64,000 bases of DNA from Streptomyces yatensis. GTDB lineage: Bacteria; Actinomycetota; Actinomycetes; Streptomycetales; Streptomycetaceae. The translations under genes were made by a program, and so were the position numbers. Location: positions 3,596,001 to 3,660,000 of the forward strand of contig NZ_CP072941.1 in assembly GCF_018069625.1 (NCBI RefSeq), given 5' to 3'. The notes beneath the pieces were generated by a model. It was not told the origin of the DNA, searched no databases, and worked only from the letters and a program-made list of their open reading frames with translations. Positions 2,302 through 11,521 of this stretch are shown piece after piece (the first letter of the stretch is position 1; each line of letters starts with the position of its first letter).

Positions 2302-3155
2302 TCGACACGACCACCTTCGAAGCGCACCGGCGGATGCTGTTCGGCATCGCCTACCGCATGCTCGGCTCCGTCGCCGACGCCGAGGACGTGGTGCAGGACG
2401 CCTGGCTGCGGTGCAGTCAGGCCTCCACGCCGGTGCGCAATCCGGCGGGCTATCTGGTCCGTACGGTCACCAACCTCGCGCTCAACCGGCTCACCTCGGC
2501 CGCCGCCACCCGCGAGCAGTACGTCGGCCCCTGGCTGCCCGAGCCGCTGGTCACCCGGCCGGACATCGGCGAGGAGGTGGAGCTGGCCGAGTCGGTCTCG
2601 CTCGCCATGCTCGTCGTCCTGGAGAGTCTGTCGCCGCTGGAGCGGGCGGTCTTCGTGCTCAAGGAGGTCTTCGGCTTCTCCTTCCGGGAGATCGCCGGAA
2701 TGCTGGATCGCGGCGAGGCGGCCGTACGGCAGGTGGGCAGCCGGGCCAGGGCCCATGTGCAGGCCCGCCGGCCGCGTTACGACGCCCCGGCGGAGGTGCG
2801 GCGGCAGGTCACCGAGGAGTTCCTGGCCGCGTGTCTCGGCGGCGACCTGAACCGCATGATGGAGCTGCTGGCCCCCGATGTGACGGCGTGGAGCGACGGC
2901 GGCGGCAAGGTGAAGGCCGCACTCCGCCCGCAGCGGGGCGCGGAGAAGGTCGCCCGCTTCCTCGCCGCCGTCATCGCCCAGCCGATGGACGACCCCCGGG
3001 TGCACGCGGTGGACGTCAACGGCCGGCCGGGATTGCTGTTCACGGTCGCGGGCCGCCCGGACACGGTCGCCTGCGCGGAGGTCGAGGACGGGCGCATCAC
3101 GGAGATCCGCATCATTCGCAACCCGGACAAGCTGCGGCACCTGCCGCCGCCGTAG
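2298..3155 (+). CDS. sigJ: ECF41-type RNA polymerase sigma factor (SigJ-like) with SnoaL-like C-terminal domain
   Basis: The 285-residue protein has sigma region 2 at the N-terminus (RRMLFGIAYRMLGSVADAEDVVQDAW) and region 4 around residues 105-150 (LSPLERAVFVLKEVFGFSFREIAGML). An added C-terminal SnoaL-like domain of about 110 residues follows. All three signature motifs of the ECF41 group are present: WLPEP in the linker, DGGGK, and the terminal NPDKL. In this group the C-terminal domain replaces a separate anti-sigma factor. The GTG start overlaps the TGA of the decarboxylase gene. The last 44 bases overlap the convergent mca gene. Regulation probably goes through the TGTCACA promoter ahead of the operon. 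The sigJ symbol is used loosely for the group. Confidence 0.9.
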   Translation: MIDTTTFEAHRRMLFGIAYRMLGSVADAEDVVQDAWLRCSQASTPVRNPAGYLVRTVTNLALNRLTSAAATREQYVGPWLPEPLVTRPDIGEEVELAESVSLAMLVVLESLSPLERAVFVLKEVFGFSFREIAGMLDRGEAAVRQVGSRARAHVQARRPRYDAPAEVRRQVTEEFLAACLGGDLNRMMELLAPDVTAWSDGGGKVKAALRPQRGAEKVARFLAAVIAQPMDDPRVHAVDVNGRPGLLFTVAGRPDTVACAEVEDGRITEIRIIRNPDKLRHLPPP

Positions 3156-4029
3156 GCCGCTGAGGGCGCCGGGGGCGCCGCACCCCGGCGAACAGATCGT
3201 CCTCGGGAGTCGCGCCATCGACCTCGACATCGACGTGGGACCGGGCCAGGCGATAGTCCTCAGTGGGCCAGACCTCGCGCTCGATGTCACGGTCATGAAG
3301 CATGAACCCGGCGTTCGGGTCGATCTGCGTGGCGTGCGCGAGCAGCGCCCGGTCCCTGGTCGCGAAGTGCTCCGCGCACGGCACCCGCGTGGTGATCTCC
3401 AGCCCGACGGCGGGCAGTTCGGCCAGCACCTCCCGCATGCCCGAGTCCATGCCCCGTGCGGTCATGGCGTCGTGCAGGGCCTGGAACCAGGGCCGCGACA
3501 AGCCGCCCTGGTAGTACAGCTTCAGTGGCCGCCAGGGCGCCCCCGCCTCGGGATGGCGGCCCACCTCCCCCGCCGCGTCGAAGGCGGCGACCGTCACCTG
3601 ATGGGTCCTGATGTGGTCCGGGTGCGGATAGCCGCCGGTCTCGTCGTACGTGACGACCACATGCGGTCGGAAGCTCCGGATCAGCCCCACCAGTCGTCCG
3701 GCCGCCTCCTCCAGGGGCGCGAGCGCGAAGCAGCCGTCGGGCAGCGGCTCGCCCGGCGCCGGGAGCCCCGAGTCGACGAACCCCAGGAAGTGCTGGCGCA
3801 CCCCCAGGATCCGGCGGGCCTCGGCCATCTCGGCCCGCCGGATCGCGGCGAGGTTCTCCCGCACACCGGGCCGGTCCATGGCGGGGTTGAGCACATCTCC
3901 ACGCTCCCCTCCGGTGCAGGTGACCACCAGCACCTCCACCCCCTCGGCGGCGTACTTGGCCAGCGTGGCCGCGCCCTTGCTGGACTCGTCGTCGGGGTGG
4001 GCGTGCACGCTCATCAGACGCAGGTTCAA
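3112..4029 (-). CDS. mca: Mycothiol S-conjugate amidase
   Basis: This is a LmbE/PIG-L family zinc deacetylase. The metal-binding HAHPDDESSKG motif lies close to the N-terminus and a second ligand motif, GYPHPDHIRTHQ, near residue 145. The full-length match to Mca (about 290-305 residues) distinguishes it from MshB by the LYYQGGLSRPWFQALH segment. Mca cleaves mycothiol conjugates of electrophiles to release a mercapturic acid and regenerate GlcN-inositol, a detoxification step in actinobacterial cytoplasm. A GAGGAG sequence (4040-4035) lies five bases ahead of the TTG at 4029, so I prefer that start over the overlapping GTG at 4035. The 3' end overlaps the sigma factor gene tail-to-tail. Confidence 0.9.
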   Translation of the reverse strand: MNLRLMSVHAHPDDESSKGAATLAKYAAEGVEVLVVTCTGGERGDVLNPAMDRPGVRENLAAIRRAEMAEARRILGVRQHFLGFVDSGLPAPGEPLPDGCFALAPLEEAAGRLVGLIRSFRPHVVVTYDETGGYPHPDHIRTHQVTVAAFDAAGEVGRHPEAGAPWRPLKLYYQGGLSRPWFQALHDAMTARGMDSGMREVLAELPAVGLEITTRVPCAEHFATRDRALLAHATQIDPNAGFMLHDRDIEREVWPTEDYRLARSHVDVEVDGATPEDDLFAGVRRPRRPQRPTAAAGAAACPGCE

Positions 4030-4084
4030 GCGCACTCCTCGGATGGTTCGTGGTGACTGACACCCAGAAAACTAGCCCGAACCA

Positions 4085-4134: not shown

Positions 4135-4794
4135 ATGACAGCAGGACTGCGTGAGCTGAAGAAGCGGCAGACGCGCCAGATGATCTCCGACACCGCGACC
4201 CGGCTCTTCATGGAGCGCGGCTTCGAGGCGGTGACCATCGCCGAGATCGCGACGGCGGCCCAGGTGGCCAAGATGACGGTCACGAACTACTTCCCGCGCA
4301 AGGAAGACCTGGCCCTCGACTACCACGAGACGATCACCACCGCCCTGGCCCGGACCGTCGCGGGCCGCCCGACCGGCGAATCGGCCCTGACCGCGCTGCG
4401 CCGCGCATACCTGGCCGCGGTCGAGCGTCACGACCCCGTCGTCGGCTTCTCCAGCCCGGAGTTCGCCCGCATGGTCGCCGACAGCCCCACCCTGACCACC
4501 CGACTCCGCGAACTGCACGACCAACGCGAAGAGGCCCTGGCCGACGTCCTCACCACCGAAACCGCCCTCACCCCCGACGACCCCACCCCCCGCGCCGCCG
4601 CCGCCCTCCTCACCGCCGCCCACCGCACCCTGTTCCACCACGTCCAGGCCCTGACCCGCGCGGGCCACCCCACCGAGGAGATCGCCACCGCGGCAACCCG
4701 CTCAGCCGAGAAGGTCTTCGACTTGCTGGAACCGTCCTTGGGCGACTACGCGCGCGCTGGGGCTGGTGCCGCCGGCCTCAGCGCACCGGGGTAG
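4135..4794 (+). CDS. TetR family transcriptional regulator
   Basis: The 219-residue protein has the N-terminal TetR helix-turn-helix: LKKRQTRQMISDTATRLFMERGF, then VTIAEIATAAQVAKMTVTNYF, with the KEDL turn typical of the family. The C-terminal two thirds form a helical ligand-binding domain with no recognisable specificity. It is divergent from mca, and the 105-base AT-rich interval probably serves both genes. By the usual logic of the family it represses itself and perhaps mca or another neighbour in response to a small ligand; that is inference. The C-terminal third is rich in Thr, Pro and Ala. Confidence 0.9.
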   Translation: MTAGLRELKKRQTRQMISDTATRLFMERGFEAVTIAEIATAAQVAKMTVTNYFPRKEDLALDYHETITTALARTVAGRPTGESALTALRRAYLAAVERHDPVVGFSSPEFARMVADSPTLTTRLRELHDQREEALADVLTTETALTPDDPTPRAAAALLTAAHRTLFHHVQALTRAGHPTEEIATAATRSAEKVFDLLEPSLGDYARAGAGAAGLSAPG

Positions 4795-4910: not shown

Positions 4911-7900
4911 GTGGCGTTCTGGATGGCTGCTGCGTCCGTATGGGCTGTGCTGCAGCTGCTGTTGCTGTCCTGGCCGGTGCGGACGGTGCGGTGGCCGACG
5001 GTGCTGCTCGCCTTCGGGGTGGGGGCGTACGGCTGCGGCGTGCTCTCGATGGCCCTGGAACTCGTGGTGGCACGTCAGTTGGCCACCACGCGGGAGAAAT
5101 CACTGTCGGGCGTCATGGATGTGGTGTCGTGGACGACGGCTCCGGCAGTGGAGGAGCTGGTCAAGATCGCGCCGCTCCTGGTCGCGGGGTGGGCACTGCG
5201 CAGACGGATGCAGTGGGGGCTGGCGGACTTCGTGGTGCTGGGCGGCGCCGCCGGAGCTGGGTTCGGGCTGCTGGAAAAGCTGCTGATGTATGCCGAGTCC
5301 GCGGGTAAGGCCGCCCCCACGGACGAGGGGGGCTGGCAGATCGCGGGGGGACTGATCGACCCGCCGTACGTTCCCGGCCTCGAACAGATCCTCGGCAGTT
5401 GGTTCCCCTCATCGACCGGCACCGTCGAAGTCGGGGGTCCGACACTCCCCTACGAGGTACACATCTTCGCCAGCGCGCTCGGCGGGCTGGCGGTGGGCCT
5501 GCTGTGGTGCGGTGGCCGCGTCCTGACCCGGGTCGCGGCCCTGGTGCCACTGGCCGGGGCGGTCGCGATCCACTGGGTGACCAATTACGCCGCGGCCTTC
5601 CCGGGCGACGAAACCGCGATGGAGTGGCGGGAGAAGCTGGCCGGGGACTGGGGCCTGTGGATCATCCTGGGGTGCCTTGCCGTCGCGTGGATCTGGGATC
5701 TGCGCCGGTCCCGCCTGGGCCGACGGCACCAACCTGACGTCGTGCTGGCTGCCGAACGCCAGGGCCAGACCGCCCCCGAAGCTCTCCTCGGGTACGCCCT
5801 GTTGCGCCTCCCGGCCACCTGGATCCTCGCCCTGGGCTACGCCCGGCAGCGCCGGGCGCTGCTGTACGCCACGGCCCACCCCCGTAGCCGCCCGGAGAAG
5901 TTGGAGCCGCTGCGCGAGTCGGTCGTCCAGCAGACCCACCGGATGGACGCGACCCACCGCCAGGAGGCATGGCGCGGCGTGACCTTACGGCAGCTGTGGC
6001 ACCGGGCCCGGGAGCAGCGACCCCGCTGGCCGCGGCAGGAGAAAGTCCTCCTGGTGCTCAGCCTGCTGCTGGCCGTCCCTTCCCTGCTGTATCTGGCGGT
6101 GGGTTCCTTCCCGTCCACGAAGGATCTGCAGCAGTACTTCACCGAGGGCACCGGGCTGCGCATCCTGGTCGGCGTCGGCCTGGCCGGGCTGGTCCTGACC
6201 CTGTGGCGCCTGATGTCCGCCGTACGCGGCTACCGGGCCGCAAGCGCGTCTCCGCTGGGCGAGGCCGTCGCCCTGGTCCAGTTCCGCATCGCCGTCTGCG
6301 CGGGCTCACTCGTCGTCGGCGTCCTGTTGCTGTCCCGCTGGTCCGCGATCGCGGACGGCGAGGCCCCTCTGGCGGGCTACCGCATTCTCGGCACCGACCG
6401 CTTTCTCCTGGAAAAGCTCCTCGAGACCGGCCTCCCTCTCCTCCTCACCCTCGCCATGTTCGCCATGCCCTACGCGCTGCCCCTGGAACTCGCCATGGGC
6501 GGCGGGCTGGCGGAGACCCTGCTGATGGGCCTCGGCCCGCGCGCCCTGGCCCCGGTCGCCTCACGCATCGGCGCCAGGCTGGCGGCGCGGGAGGCGACAC
6601 AATGGGCGCGCGGCGCTCTCCGCAGCCGTGGCCGGGGGGTGTTCTCCCGTACCTGGGACCGGGTGCGACACGGCCGTACCGATCCGGTGGATCTGGCGAC
6701 CGGGCGGATGTTCCTGCCGCAGACGGATGTGGAGCTGCCGGGTGTGCTGCCGCTGGTGTTCTCCCGCCGGGTGGACTCCGGATACCGCGCCGGGCGGTGG
6801 TTCGGCCCGACCTGGGCATCGACGGCCGACCAGCGGCTGGAGTCCGACGAGCAGGGCGTGATCTTCTTCACCGAGGACGGTCTGCTGCTGGCCTATCCGC
6901 ATCCGGTGCCGGGCGGCCCCGCGGTCCTCCCCGCGGAGGGTCCGCGCTGGCCGCTGGCACGGACGGCGGACGGGGTGACGTACACCGTCACCCACCCGGA
7001 GGCCGGGCTCGTCCGCACCTTCACCCCGTACGGCGACGGAACGGTGGCACTCCTGCAGGAGATCACCGACCGCAACGGCAACCGCGTCACCTTCACCTAC
7101 GACGCCTCCGGCACGCCCCTCGAAATCCTCCACAGCGGTGGCTACCGGCTGCGGCTGACGTCGGAGAACGAGCGGATCACCGGCCTGTACGTGGGGGACG
7201 TGCGGGTGATGGGCTACGGCTACACCGACGGCCGGCTCACCGAAGTGACGGGCTCCTCGGGGCTGCCGCTGCGTTTCGTCTACGACCGGGTCGGGCGGGT
7301 CACGTCCTGGATCGACACCAACAACCGCTGGTACTCCTACGCCTACGACGAGCACGACCGGGTCATCGCCGAGGGCGGCGAAGGCGGCCACTACACCCTC
7401 CGCATCGGCTACGACGGGGTGGACCCGGACTTCCCCGGTCTGAAGGTCACGACCCTCACCTCACCGGACGGTGCGGTCACCCGCTATCTGATCGACGAGG
7501 CGCACCAGGTCGTCGGGGAGATCGACGCGGCCGGCGCGGTCAGCCGCACGGTGTACGACGAAGCGGGCCGTACGGTCGCCGAGACCGACCCGCTGGGCCG
7601 CACCACCGGCTTCCGCTACGACGAGCACGGGCATCCGACGGCCGTGATCCGGCCGGACGGCAGCGAGATCAGCGCGACGCTGGACGCACAGGGCAACCCG
7701 GTACAGATCACCGACCCGGACGGCGCGGTATGGCGGCAGACCTTCGACGCGGCGGGCAACCGCACCACCCTCACCGACCCGCTCGCCGCCACCACCCGGT
7801 ATCTGTACGACGCACGCGGAGGTCTCCTCGCCGTCACCGACCCGCTGGCCGCGACGACCCGGGTGCGCTGCGACGGGGCCGGGCTCCCCGTCGAAATCAC

Positions 7901-10091
7901 CGACCCGCTGGGGGCCACGACCTGCTACCAGCGGGACGCCTTCGGCCGCGTCGTGGCCGAGACCGACCCGCTGGGTGCGGTGACCCGCTACGAGTGGAGC
8001 CCGGAGGGCAAGCTCCTGCGCCGCACGGGGCCGGATGGCTCGGCGGAGTCCTGGACGTACGACGGCGAGGGCAACTGCCTCTCTCATACCGACCCCGTCG
8101 GTGGCACGACGGTGTACGAGTACACCCACTTCGACCTGCTGGCCGCCCGCACGGGCCCGGACGGGGCCCGCTACGAGTTCGAGCACGACGCGGCGCTGCG
8201 GCTGACGAGGGTCACCAATCCGCAGGGGCTGACCTGGAGTTACGCGTACGACCTGGCGGGCCGCCTGGTGACGGAGACGGACTTCGACGGCCGTAGGGTG
8301 AGCTACGCGCATGACGCGGCGGGCCAACTCGTCTCGCGTACCGACCCTCTGGGCCAACGCACCGGCTACGTCCACGACGCGCTGGGCCGCGTAGTGTCCC
8401 AGGACGCCGCCGGGCAGATATCGACCTTCCGCTGGGGCCCGGCCGGAGACATACTCGAGGCCATCGGCCCGGACACCGAGCTGACCCGGACGTACGACCC
8501 CGTCGGCCGCATGCTCTCCGAGACAGTGGACGGCCGCACCCTGCACCTGGCCTACGACGCGGCAGGGCAGCTCGTCTCCCGCCGTACCCCGGCAGGGGCG
8601 GAGACTATTTACGCCTACGACGCGGCGGGCAACCGCATCGCCCTGACGGCCGGGGTCCACGTCCTCGCCTCGGCATACGACGCAGCAGGCCGCGAAATCA
8701 CGCGCCGCATCGGCGACGCCCTCGCCCTCACCCATACTTGGGACCGACTCGGCCGCCTGACCACGCAAGCTCTGACCGGCGTATCTGGCGACATCCACCA
8801 CCGGGCGTACGGCTACCGAGCCGACGGCCACCTCACCTCGGTGGACGACCACTTGTCGGGCCGACGCACCTTCGACCTGGACGCGGCGGGCCGGGTCACC
8901 GCCGTCCAAGCCCACGGCTGGACCGAGACCTACGCCTACGACGAGGCGGGCAACCAAACACACGCGACCTGGCCGAGCACGCAACCCGCCCAGGAGGCGA
9001 CGGGGCCCCGCACCTACACCGGTACGCGCATCACCGGCGCGGGCTCGGTCCGCTACGAACACGACGAGGCGGGCCGCCTCACCCTCCGCCAAAAGACCCG
9101 CCTGTCCCGCAAACCGGATACCTGGCACTACACCTGGGACGCCGAAGACCGCCTGGTATCGGTCACCACCCCCGACGGCACGGTGTGGCGCTACCGCTAC
9201 GACCCCTTCGGCCGCCGCACCACCAAACAACGCCTCGCGGCAGACGGCGAAACCGTCCTGGAGCAAACGGATTTCACCTGGGACGGCCCCACCCTCGTGG
9301 AACAGACCACCACCGCCCCGGACTTCCCCCACCCCGTCACCCTCACCTGGGACCACGACGGCCTTCACCCCATAGCCCAGACCGAACGCGTCACCGAAGC
9401 CACCACCCAACGCGAAATCGACGCCCGCTTCTTCGCGATCGTCACCGACCTGGTCGGCACCCCCACCGAACTCATCGACGATTCGGGCACCATCGCGTGG
9501 CACACCCGCTCCACCCTCTGGGGCACCACGACCTGGGCCGCCGACAGCACGGCGTACACCCCGCTCCGCTTCCCCGGCCAATACTTCGACCCGGAAACCG
9601 GCCTCCACTACAATTTCCATCGCTATTACGACCCGGATTCCGCCCGCTATCTCTCCCCCGACCCTCTAGGTCTATCCCCCGCCCCCAACCCGGCCGCCTA
9701 CACCCAGAACCCCCACACCTGGTTTGATCCCCTAGGACTATCCCCATGTCCAGGCGGCAACCACAATTGGGCCGGCAATCCCGCTGAACACGCCCGGCTA
9801 AGACGATTCTACGAACAAGCCCAAAAATACGGGAAGGCCGGTTACAGGGAACTAGAAAGCGGAAGATTCCGCTTTTATGGAAATGTAACACCCGCAAGGA
9901 AGGAAGGCGAAATAATGGGACGCCGACTCGTCCGAGAGTGGGATCCCGCAACTGACTCCACTCGCATTTGGCACGAATCACTTGATCACGGCGGCAGGGT
10001 ACGCATCACAAGACCCGACGTAAAACTCACGGGCGGCAAAAAGGTGCACTACCTGTTCGACGGCACCGGAAATCTCATAGGAAAATTTTAA
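4911..10091 (+). CDS. PrsW-like intramembrane protease fused to RHS/YD-repeat polymorphic toxin
   Basis: A single 1726-residue frame. Residues 1-270 form a PrsW-family membrane protease: AVEELVK (Glu81, Glu82), GFGLLEKLLMY (Glu122), YEVHIFAS (His184) and IHWVTNY (His221), all in membrane segments. Residues 375-560 add further hydrophobic segments. A DUF6531 entry domain follows near 590-665 (PVDLATGRMFLPQTDVELPG), then many YD repeats (for example RYEYDEAGR-type units) to about 1500. The RHS core (PETGLHYNFHRYYDPDSARY) ends in DPLGL near 1607. The last about 118 residues, containing GRRLVREWDPATDSTR and IWHESLDHGG, resemble the Ntox24 (polymorphic toxin type 24) domain as I remember it. A leucine TTA codon at 5985-5987 suggests bldA control. 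The small gene behind it is the likely immunity gene. The start is uncertain by a few codons. Confidence 0.85.
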   Translation: MAFWMAAASVWAVLQLLLLSWPVRTVRWPTVLLAFGVGAYGCGVLSMALELVVARQLATTREKSLSGVMDVVSWTTAPAVEELVKIAPLLVAGWALRRRMQWGLADFVVLGGAAGAGFGLLEKLLMYAESAGKAAPTDEGGWQIAGGLIDPPYVPGLEQILGSWFPSSTGTVEVGGPTLPYEVHIFASALGGLAVGLLWCGGRVLTRVAALVPLAGAVAIHWVTNYAAAFPGDETAMEWREKLAGDWGLWIILGCLAVAWIWDLRRSRLGRRHQPDVVLAAERQGQTAPEALLGYALLRLPATWILALGYARQRRALLYATAHPRSRPEKLEPLRESVVQQTHRMDATHRQEAWRGVTLRQLWHRAREQRPRWPRQEKVLLVLSLLLAVPSLLYLAVGSFPSTKDLQQYFTEGTGLRILVGVGLAGLVLTLWRLMSAVRGYRAASASPLGEAVALVQFRIAVCAGSLVVGVLLLSRWSAIADGEAPLAGYRILGTDRFLLEKLLETGLPLLLTLAMFAMPYALPLELAMGGGLAETLLMGLGPRALAPVASRIGARLAAREATQWARGALRSRGRGVFSRTWDRVRHGRTDPVDLATGRMFLPQTDVELPGVLPLVFSRRVDSGYRAGRWFGPTWASTADQRLESDEQGVIFFTEDGLLLAYPHPVPGGPAVLPAEGPRWPLARTADGVTYTVTHPEAGLVRTFTPYGDGTVALLQEITDRNGNRVTFTYDASGTPLEILHSGGYRLRLTSENERITGLYVGDVRVMGYGYTDGRLTEVTGSSGLPLRFVYDRVGRVTSWIDTNNRWYSYAYDEHDRVIAEGGEGGHYTLRIGYDGVDPDFPGLKVTTLTSPDGAVTRYLIDEAHQVVGEIDAAGAVSRTVYDEAGRTVAETDPLGRTTGFRYDEHGHPTAVIRPDGSEISATLDAQGNPVQITDPDGAVWRQTFDAAGNRTTLTDPLAATTRYLYDARGGLLAVTDPLAATTRVRCDGAGLPVEITDPLGATTCYQRDAFGRVVAETDPLGAVTRYEWSPEGKLLRRTGPDGSAESWTYDGEGNCLSHTDPVGGTTVYEYTHFDLLAARTGPDGARYEFEHDAALRLTRVTNPQGLTWSYAYDLAGRLVTETDFDGRRVSYAHDAAGQLVSRTDPLGQRTGYVHDALGRVVSQDAAGQISTFRWGPAGDILEAIGPDTELTRTYDPVGRMLSETVDGRTLHLAYDAAGQLVSRRTPAGAETIYAYDAAGNRIALTAGVHVLASAYDAAGREITRRIGDALALTHTWDRLGRLTTQALTGVSGDIHHRAYGYRADGHLTSVDDHLSGRRTFDLDAAGRVTAVQAHGWTETYAYDEAGNQTHATWPSTQPAQEATGPRTYTGTRITGAGSVRYEHDEAGRLTLRQKTRLSRKPDTWHYTWDAEDRLVSVTTPDGTVWRYRYDPFGRRTTKQRLAADGETVLEQTDFTWDGPTLVEQTTTAPDFPHPVTLTWDHDGLHPIAQTERVTEATTQREIDARFFAIVTDLVGTPTELIDDSGTIAWHTRSTLWGTTTWAADSTAYTPLRFPGQYFDPETGLHYNFHRYYDPDSARYLSPDPLGLSPAPNPAAYTQNPHTWFDPLGLSPCPGGNHNWAGNPAEHARLRRFYEQAQKYGKAGYRELESGRFRFYGNVTPARKEGEIMGRRLVREWDPATDSTRIWHESLDHGGRVRITRPDVKLTGGKKVHYLFDGTGNLIGKF

Positions 10092-10098
10092 GGATCCC

Positions 10099-10341
10099 AT
10101 GAATCTGAGGAATGAAATCATCAAAAGACTCACGGCGCTTACCGAAGGCACCAGCCCCCCGGAGGAGGTCTCCGAATGGGCGACTTCCACAATGCAGGAA
10201 GACGCCCCGGACCTACTGGACGCCGATGTCTGGCAAGCGCTTGATCGCCTGAGTGGGGCAGACCTCAAGTCTGACCCGACAACCTACCTGCACAGCACAG
10301 AAGACTACGTGGAGTGGCTGCGCGAGTTCAGGGAACAATAA
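10099..10341 (+). CDS. Putative immunity protein for the RHS toxin
   Basis: An 80-residue acidic protein (MNLRNEIIKRLTALTEGT start) with no recognised domain, beginning seven bases after the RHS stop codon with AAGGA just ahead of its ATG. Its position directly after a polymorphic toxin tip, small size, acidic charge and shared lower GC content are what is expected of a cognate immunity protein. It has no signal peptide, which implies protection from the cytoplasmic side. The last 14 bases overlap the convergent DUF397 gene. The function is inferred from position only; it could be an orphan hypothetical. Confidence 0.6.
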   Translation: MNLRNEIIKRLTALTEGTSPPEEVSEWATSTMQEDAPDLLDADVWQALDRLSGADLKSDPTTYLHSTEDYVEWLREFREQ

Positions 10342-10567
10342 GGGCGAGGCGTGGGAATTCTCCGGTACGCAGAGCGGTCGTGAACGTGTCCCACGCCTCC
10401 ACGGGGAACACGAGGGCCGGGCCTGCCGGGTGTTTGCTGTCGCGGACGGGGACGACACCGGCAGTGGTGGCTATGGAGGGCGCGAACTCCACGCACTGGC
10501 CTTCGTCGCCGCTGCTGTAGCTGGACTTGACCCATTCAGCACCGGACAGGTCGAGGGCGGTGTTCAT
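10328..10567 (-). CDS. DUF397 domain protein (Scr2-like)
   Basis: The 79-residue protein carries the DUF397 hallmark WVKSSYSSGDEGQCVEFA near residue 12, then VPVRDSKHPAGPALVF and a terminal WDTFTTALRTGEF. Such proteins occur in large numbers in Streptomyces, usually next to a helix-turn-helix protein of the WhiJ/Scr1 type. Some pairs behave like toxin-antitoxin or developmental regulatory modules. Its ATG overlaps the TGA of the upstream regulator by four bases (ATGA), so the two are coupled. The role here is unknown. Confidence 0.9.
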   Translation of the reverse strand: MNTALDLSGAEWVKSSYSSGDEGQCVEFAPSIATTAGVVPVRDSKHPAGPALVFPVEAWDTFTTALRTGEFPRLALIVP

Positions 10568-11388
10568 CGTGTGTAGTCCTCCATCAGTCTGTGGATCACG
10601 GCCAGCGAATCGTCCGGCGACAAAGCCGAAGCCCTGATGCGGTCGTACCTGGCAGTCGCGAGCTCCACTTCTGCCGGTGAATCGATCGTCTGGCCCGCCA
10701 TGGCTGTATCTGCGTACACAACACTCGGTTCATCGTCGAACGTCAGAAGGGTAAAGCTTCCCGGCACCGGAGGTGCTCCGGCCGAGAACGGCAGCACCTG
10801 AAGTGTGATGTGCGGAGACTCTGCTTCGGCCAAGAGGTGGGCGAGTTGGGCGCGCATCACTTCCCTTCCTCCCACCTCAGTGCGTAGGCACGCCTGACTC
10901 AGGACGCACCACAGCAACGGCGGCGCATCCCGCTCCATCACCTCTCGTCGCTGCAATCGTCTGGCCACCCTTGCATCGATCTGGTCGGCGGCGTCCCGAG
11001 GATGTGCGGACCGGAATACCGCTCGCGCGTACTCGGCCGTCTGCAACATGCCCATGATGAGCGTCGCCGAGTAGTCCAGGATGCCGACCGCCTGCCGCTC
11101 CAACTGCACGTACGGCACGAACCAGTCCGGATAGCCATGCTGGCTGGCCCGCTTCCGCAGGCGTGCGAACAGGCCCGGTGTGCCGAAGACCCGATCGCAC
11201 GCGTCGGCGAACTCGGGGCTGGCCAAGCGCTCCCCCGCCTCCACCTTGGCCACATATTGCTGCCCGTAGTTGGCCTTCAAGCCCAACTCCCGCTGGCTCA
11301 GCTCCGCCTGCATCCGCCAGGTCCGTACCTCGGCTCCTAAGAACGCCGCTCCGCTCGACGGTTCCTGGCCTTCCTTGGCCTCACTCAC
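10564..11388 (-). CDS. WhiJ/Scr1-like helix-turn-helix regulator with DUF5753 domain
   Basis: From the GTG at 11388 the protein is 274 residues. That start is preferred because AGGGGAG lies about eight bases upstream; longer reading adds low-complexity sequence. An XRE-type helix-turn-helix lies near residues 15-70 (LGAEVRTWRMQAELSQRELG and YVAKVEAGER). The DUF5753 domain follows (YVQLERQAVGILDYSATLIMG, then PHITLQVLPFSAGA). Together with the overlapping DUF397 gene it makes the module known from whiJ-like loci, in which the regulator is thought to repress until its small partner antagonises it. It is divergent from three tiny genes that may belong to the same locus. Confidence 0.9.
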   Translation of the reverse strand: MSEAKEGQEPSSGAAFLGAEVRTWRMQAELSQRELGLKANYGQQYVAKVEAGERLASPEFADACDRVFGTPGLFARLRKRASQHGYPDWFVPYVQLERQAVGILDYSATLIMGMLQTAEYARAVFRSAHPRDAADQIDARVARRLQRREVMERDAPPLLWCVLSQACLRTEVGGREVMRAQLAHLLAEAESPHITLQVLPFSAGAPPVPGSFTLLTFDDEPSVVYADTAMAGQTIDSPAEVELATARYDRIRASALSPDDSLAVIHRLMEDYTR

Positions 11389-11521
11389 CTGTGGTTCTCC
11401 CCTCACCCCAAGCCGCTTGGTGTGCCCCGATCCCTGTTGCGCGCGGCCCCGCAGGGCAACGCTGGGAGTACACAGAGTGATTAAAGCCCGCAAGACACAT
11501 CCAGGTCAGGAAGAACCCCCC

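Follow-up and report, generated by a model that had tools for sequence, protein, structure and literature searches.

Zhang et al. (2012; PMC3482391) counted PrsW among the trafficking systems of polymorphic toxins, described short-linker and RHS-linked forms, and named a Streptomyces protein with the order PrsW-RHS-Ntox9. Their proposal was that PrsW acts as a conduit which extrudes and processes the toxin, providing both export and self-release. The gene analysed here (positions 4911-10091, forward strand, of the window, by which we mean the whole 64,000-nucleotide stretch of Streptomyces yatensis DNA under study) has the same order as the proteins in the available text of that paper, with an N-terminal PrsW domain joined through RHS repeats to a C-terminal toxin. 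It is a real, conserved member of the published PrsW-RHS class, and its identity as a PrsW-RHS polymorphic toxin is near certain. A preliminary description of this DNA knew of no described mechanism for the combination. This part does not stand, since both the combination and PrsW-dependent export with self-release were put forward in 2012, and the release idea in the preliminary description comes close to that proposal. Our analysis goes beyond the available text of the 2012 description in its conservation counts, a second membrane module, the topology, the cleavage aspartates and the occurrence of a tip-immunity pair on another chassis. What we consider new is that the active-site residues are kept in every untruncated relative examined, that the cage is probably self-freeing and that cage and protease seem to lie on opposite faces of the membrane. 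A search of titles and abstract openings in the open-licence PMC literature found no experimental test of a PrsW-dependent toxin route.

The gene is a single open reading frame of 1726 amino acids with a GTG start, directly 5' of which lies the stretch GGAGGGG. The genome around the window is a single contig of 10.36 Mb, and the window sequence contains no N. In agreement with the preliminary description, which had one continuous frame running from PrsW through further membrane helices to an RHS cage and toxin tip, the Pfam and NCBIfam domains all fall in this one frame. A protein search with residues 1-590, in which the 8000 candidates sharing most words with the query were scored, returned 34 proteins, 28 of them 1726-1780 amino acids long; wherever an organism is given it is a Streptomyces. 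The PrsW/RHS junction, DPVDxATGRMFL, was present in all 34 proteins inspected. The membrane module was matched in 71 of 392 Streptomyces genomes (E ≤ 0.001), and 10 of the 392, the query genome counted, have a frame of 1739-1784 codons from stop to stop, which leaves room for RHS and a tip. Not among these ten are G002 and G070, whose RHS-type copies are partial and sit at contig ends, and G354, whose frame has 744 codons; weak module matches (27-33% identity), which resemble general PrsW proteins, were left out of the chassis count. The PrsW-RHS homologues L015/L048 and L042 have frames that end inside or shortly after the membrane module. Long opposite-strand ORFs also lie over the gene (for example 7461-9620), as expected from high G+C. 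When the search was widened to the class, 13 of 394 genomes were matched, six of them in Streptomyces (S. yatensis included); the seven matches outside the genus are weak, and one of these, L059, joins PrsW to a WHH/colicin-type DNase. This last protein (L059:970-3093), from a genome of another family, is a short PrsW toxin outside Streptomyces.

The PrsW-like membrane protease domain (4911..5702, forward strand; residues 1-264) has about seven predicted membrane helices and carries EExxK (81-85), E122, H184 and HxxxN (221-225). Pfam PrsW-protease matches residues 28-139 with a score of 38.3 bits (cut-off, 23.5); the match spans the first two motifs only, since an insertion of some 45 residues separates it from both His motifs. 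All four motifs fall in successive predicted membrane helices, and these helices agree with the published places of the motifs (helix 3 for EExxK, helix 5 for His and helix 6 for HxxxD/N; PMC4602095). As the preliminary description had proposed, hydropathy puts E81/E82, E122, H184 and H221 inside predicted membrane segments, and the same residues align in seven of seven other PrsW proteins: six apparently standalone, including one from the S. yatensis genome, and one DNase-joined (each standalone protein being the top BLAST hit at its locus). The four motifs are common to our protein and to standalone PrsW intramembrane proteases, to which it adds the insertion, situated between motifs 2 and 3, a four-helix module, the RHS cage and the toxin.

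Across 33 RHS-type proteins (query counted; 47-95% identical to it), E81, E82, K85, E122, H184, H221 and N225 are invariant, the count leaving out the N-truncated P0021 and the unaligned fragment P0035. Among short PrsW proteins that lack a cage (120 listed of 262), E81, E82 and E122 are present in 118 of 120, H184 in 119 and H221 in 120, and the missing residues stem from two truncated entries. Chance conservation of five out of five active-site residues is unlikely because only 91 of 602 positions are conserved at 93% or more over the RHS and short sets together. The preliminary description had suggested asking whether the protease residues persist across differing tips, and they do; their loss in homologues, which it had named as counter-evidence, was looked for and found in no untruncated relative examined. 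Judged by its motifs, the PrsW active site is complete. Structural comparison was less informative: a Foldseek search with the N-terminal part gave no significant matches (the predicted model is weak past residue 482), rows named as PrsW or CAAX proteases were absent from the best 50 of both Foldseek and VIA, and a sequence search of the N-terminal part against solved structures returned no matches. In the model itself, confidence is good over much of the PrsW core and falls below 50 at 483-557 and 569-602. At the top of the VIA rows stands a 224-residue chain from a multipass translocon entry; we take this chain to be TMEM147, an APH-1-like protein.

Beyond PrsW lies a second membrane module (5703..6680, forward strand; residues 265-590), in which hydropathy and charge mark out a positive loop (264-379), four predicted helices (380-526) and an Arg-rich linker (544-590). 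It is mostly common to the short, RHS-free forms. Short-form frames occur at 20 places in 20 Streptomyces genomes (661-864 codons, 39-46% identity), and their matches to the query run from residues 1-4 to 520-575; since the same module occurs with and without RHS, what is shared is the membrane module and not the RHS part. In the eight of these 20 places that were inspected, the tails consist of short linkers, often Gly/Ser-rich, followed by varied domains. RNase A-like (PF18431) and CdiA C-terminal (PF18451) domains are found in many of the short proteins listed of the 262, while many have no domain match, and a toxin is not evident in every member of the 120. One genome (G165, locus L044) has both forms side by side, with the genes for a short PrsW protein and a PrsW-RHS toxin arranged head to head and about 250 bp between them.

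The S. yatensis genome encodes two further RHS proteins, L089 and L090, which share the whole cage (50-52% identical), and a weak further RHS match, L004. The RHS shells of L089 and L090 are like that of our protein, but these two proteins start with T7SS_signal or WXG100_2 domains and carry other tips, and no WXG or T7SS signal is among the Pfam families of the PrsW-RHS protein. Because paralogues sharing the cage start with type VII signals, PrsW would appear to occupy the place of a secretion signal. EccC gave two matches over the cut-off in the S. yatensis genome and none of 14 control genomes exceeded it. The remark in the preliminary description that Streptomyces lacks a type VI system accords with the one family tested, the sheath family VipB, which had no match in the S. 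yatensis genome and was positive among the 14 controls only in E. coli. The immediate neighbours are a TetR-type regulator upstream (4135-4794), an HTH/DUF5753 regulator downstream (10564-11493) and a PIG-L deacetylase (3112-4035). No secretion family was found by Pfam among 11 chosen neighbour ORFs, seven of which had no match at all.

Under the explanation that we favor, and consider likely on the sequence evidence, the gene encodes a PrsW-RHS polymorphic toxin with a membrane-held, self-cleaving cage, a PrsW domain engaged in export or triggering and an immunity protein encoded downstream. According to this model, the membrane module would replace a secretion signal, insert in the producer's membrane and hold the cage; the cage would fold round the tip, free it inside by a cut at D1606 and possibly cut itself off the membrane module at D591; the retained PrsW activity would serve export or triggering, cleaving on the outer side either its own chain or a partner; and the small downstream protein would protect the producer. 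Least secure in this model is what the protease does, and any display or export model must account for a cage that the charge pattern places in the cytoplasm.

Our reasoning on topology is as follows. Hydropathy gives the whole membrane module about 11 helices, with bounds set by hand on the query. Loop charges alternate with the same orientation in 153 of 153 aligned proteins (N-terminus outside, 264-379 loop inside), the call is unchanged when that long loop is left out, and this orientation brings E122, H184 and H221 close to the outer ends of the helices that carry them. One alignment, A2, comprised 57 of the 120 listed short forms and 18 RHS-type proteins. Past helix 11 the Arg-rich linker of the RHS forms has a mean net charge of +9.8. 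A further hydrophobic stretch (>1.6 Kyte-Doolittle) past TM11 occurs in only 2 of 33 RHS forms as against 93 of 119 short forms (from 120 listed of 262), and beyond this region all 33 RHS forms have a net positive tail. Because of the loop charges, the positive linker and the rarity of a twelfth stretch in RHS forms, the RHS cage is predicted to face the cytoplasm, with the PrsW residues close to the outer face, and many short-form toxins may face outside. Neither helix count, 11 or 12, is sure, because some predicted PrsW helices score equally low (TM3 at 1.25 Kyte-Doolittle) and because the tails of short forms are mostly positive, the 30 residues past the stretch carrying a net positive charge in 76 of 119 forms and a negative one in 37 (from the same 120 listed of 262).

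This pattern bears most directly on the 2012 proposal, in which the PrsW module both moves the chain through the membrane and frees the toxin outside by cleavage; we regard it as possible, though short of probable. The proposal draws strength from the retention of the PrsW residues in all untruncated RHS and short forms examined (the latter from 120 listed of 262), from the precedent of site-1 proteases, whose cuts fall in the extracytoplasmic portion of a substrate (PMC3498285), and from the stretch past TM11, which could place the toxin of short forms outside. It is harder to reconcile with the near absence of that stretch from RHS forms, with their uniformly positive tails and with the prevalence of positive charge past the stretch in short forms; moreover, RHS has cleavage aspartates of its own and the conduit is a proposal only. 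That PrsW releases the toxin is doubtful as judged from these features.

The RHS cage (6681..9740, forward strand; residues 591-1610) extends from D591-PVDLATG to the second DPLGL (D1606). Pfam finds DUF6531 at 591-661, 18 RHS repeats and RHS protein, and NCBIfam finds Rhs_assc_core at 1536-1610 (76 bits, cut-off 32.5); YD repeats, the RHS-associated core and two DPLGL motifs are all present, the latter spaced by 17 residues, matching the spacing in PMC8636562. The whole of residues 591-1607 can be aligned with solved Rhs chains, 7pq5_L 288-1339 being one, and the end register is the same when flanks are added. Compared with type VI Rhs effectors (Rhs1/Tre23, 7q97), the shell aligns in full with 7pq5 and 7q97 and has both Rhs1 aspartates in register, but the PrsW-RHS protein has no PAAR or VgrG match in Pfam or NCBIfam. 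Specifically, D591 and D1606 align with D288 and D1338 of Photorhabdus Rhs1, which are needed for N- and C-terminal self-cleavage, respectively (PMC8636562). D591-P-V-D and A596-T597-G598 are found in 34 of 34 aligned relatives, and the residue equivalent to D591 is E in 8qjd and H in 7q97. Since both Rhs1-type cleavage aspartates are present, the cage could leave the membrane without PrsW, and it is probably able to free itself; a cleavage-type motif alone is, of course, no proof of cutting.

The N-terminal aspartate also invites a different reading, rather unlikely in our estimation, in which the PrsW module does no more than anchor and sense, self-cleavage at D591 frees the cage and PrsW cuts some other envelope protein. 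The register with D288 of Rhs1, the invariance of the motif at a place where E or H stands in other solved chains, and the prediction that cage and PrsW site lie on opposite faces would all fit. Against this, a motif is not cleavage, and in the type VII paralogues a pattern search finds the motif at the RHS start of L089 and not of L090. In addition, the short forms keep PrsW and a tail without RHS and therefore need another means of release. A bolder idea, to which we assign a low probability, is that one chassis serves two membrane faces: short forms would have 12 helices and a toxin outside, RHS forms would have 11 and a loaded cage inside, and PrsW, instead of severing the toxin, would gate it from the outside as a sensor of contact or damage while the cage frees itself via its aspartates.

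The polymorphic toxin tip (9741..10091, forward strand; residues 1611-1726 and stop) has low GC and motifs like those of Ntox9, and 7 bp past its stop begins the gene for a putative immunity protein of 80 amino acids (10099..10341, forward strand). G+C is 0.54 in the tip and 0.57 in the small ORF as against 0.70-0.73 in the rest, and third-position G+C is 0.53, 0.69 and 0.87-0.90, respectively. The features of polymorphic toxins are all in evidence, namely a constant N-terminal part, an exchanged tip and a small gene directly 3'. The query is 46.6-94.6% identical to 28 other proteins over the N-terminal part and 61.8-88.7% over RHS, yet its tip resembles that of only one of them (P0002); the tips of 29 proteins form 18 clusters (29 of 35 used, the core end of P0010, P0012, P0018, P0020, P0025 and P0035 being unrecognised by the pattern). 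Within the 392 Streptomyces genomes, query genome counted, the tip has matches in four, one of them weak, and the 80-residue protein in 17. G332 has a tip of 53% identity at the end of an RHS protein of 2194 codons, the start of which resembles a signal peptide by eye, and a 42% identical small ORF then follows; S. rugosispiralis (L038) has the same tip and small-gene pair on a PrsW-RHS gene. More generally, a small ORF lies at -4 to +7 after the full frame in six of nine named loci (L035, L042 and L043 being the exceptions). Given the tip exchange, the low G+C of the pair and the occurrence of a related pair on another chassis, tip and small gene appear to behave as a toxin-immunity cassette, the immunity function being putative, and the tip was probably acquired horizontally. 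Relatives of the 80-residue protein at L085, L086, L087 and L091 have no such tip in the stretch inspected and are perhaps orphan or re-used immunity genes.

Neither the tip nor the 80-residue protein has a Pfam or NCBIfam match, and the tip gave chance-level matches only against solved structures. Both of the 53% identical tips do contain, by eye, the Ntox9-like motifs RFY/RYY, GE, WHE/WQE and VHY; those of Ntox9 are RxY, E, WxE and H, and the family has been likened to colicin E3 (PMC3482391). Probably, then, the tip is an Ntox9-type nuclease directed against related bacteria. That it might instead be a host-control or phage-defence effector acting within the producer would suit a cage on the cytoplasmic side, but we consider this very unlikely as PADLOC matches neither the toxin nor the small protein, a related tip and partner end the G332 RHS protein with its signal-peptide-like start, and tips swap as competition toxins do. 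Finally, the notion of two genes fused by an assembly error or an overlooked frameshift, which the preliminary description had itself raised as the finding that would undo it and which has the unusual architecture as its sole support, can be dismissed as having practically no chance of being right because of the relatives of like length, the long frames in other, independent genomes and the conserved junction.

A PrsW-dependent toxin route has been proposed since 2012 (PMC3482391), and S. yatensis and its relatives offer a clean system in which to consider it: RHS toxins on type VII signals and on PrsW occur in one genome, and the chassis occurs with and without a cage. If the reading with two membrane faces were true, the PrsW-RHS protein would be a weapon made of a single protein, triggered by a protease and working without a secretion machine. 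If one membrane protein does the job of a secretion machine, the count of Gram-positive contact toxins would change.
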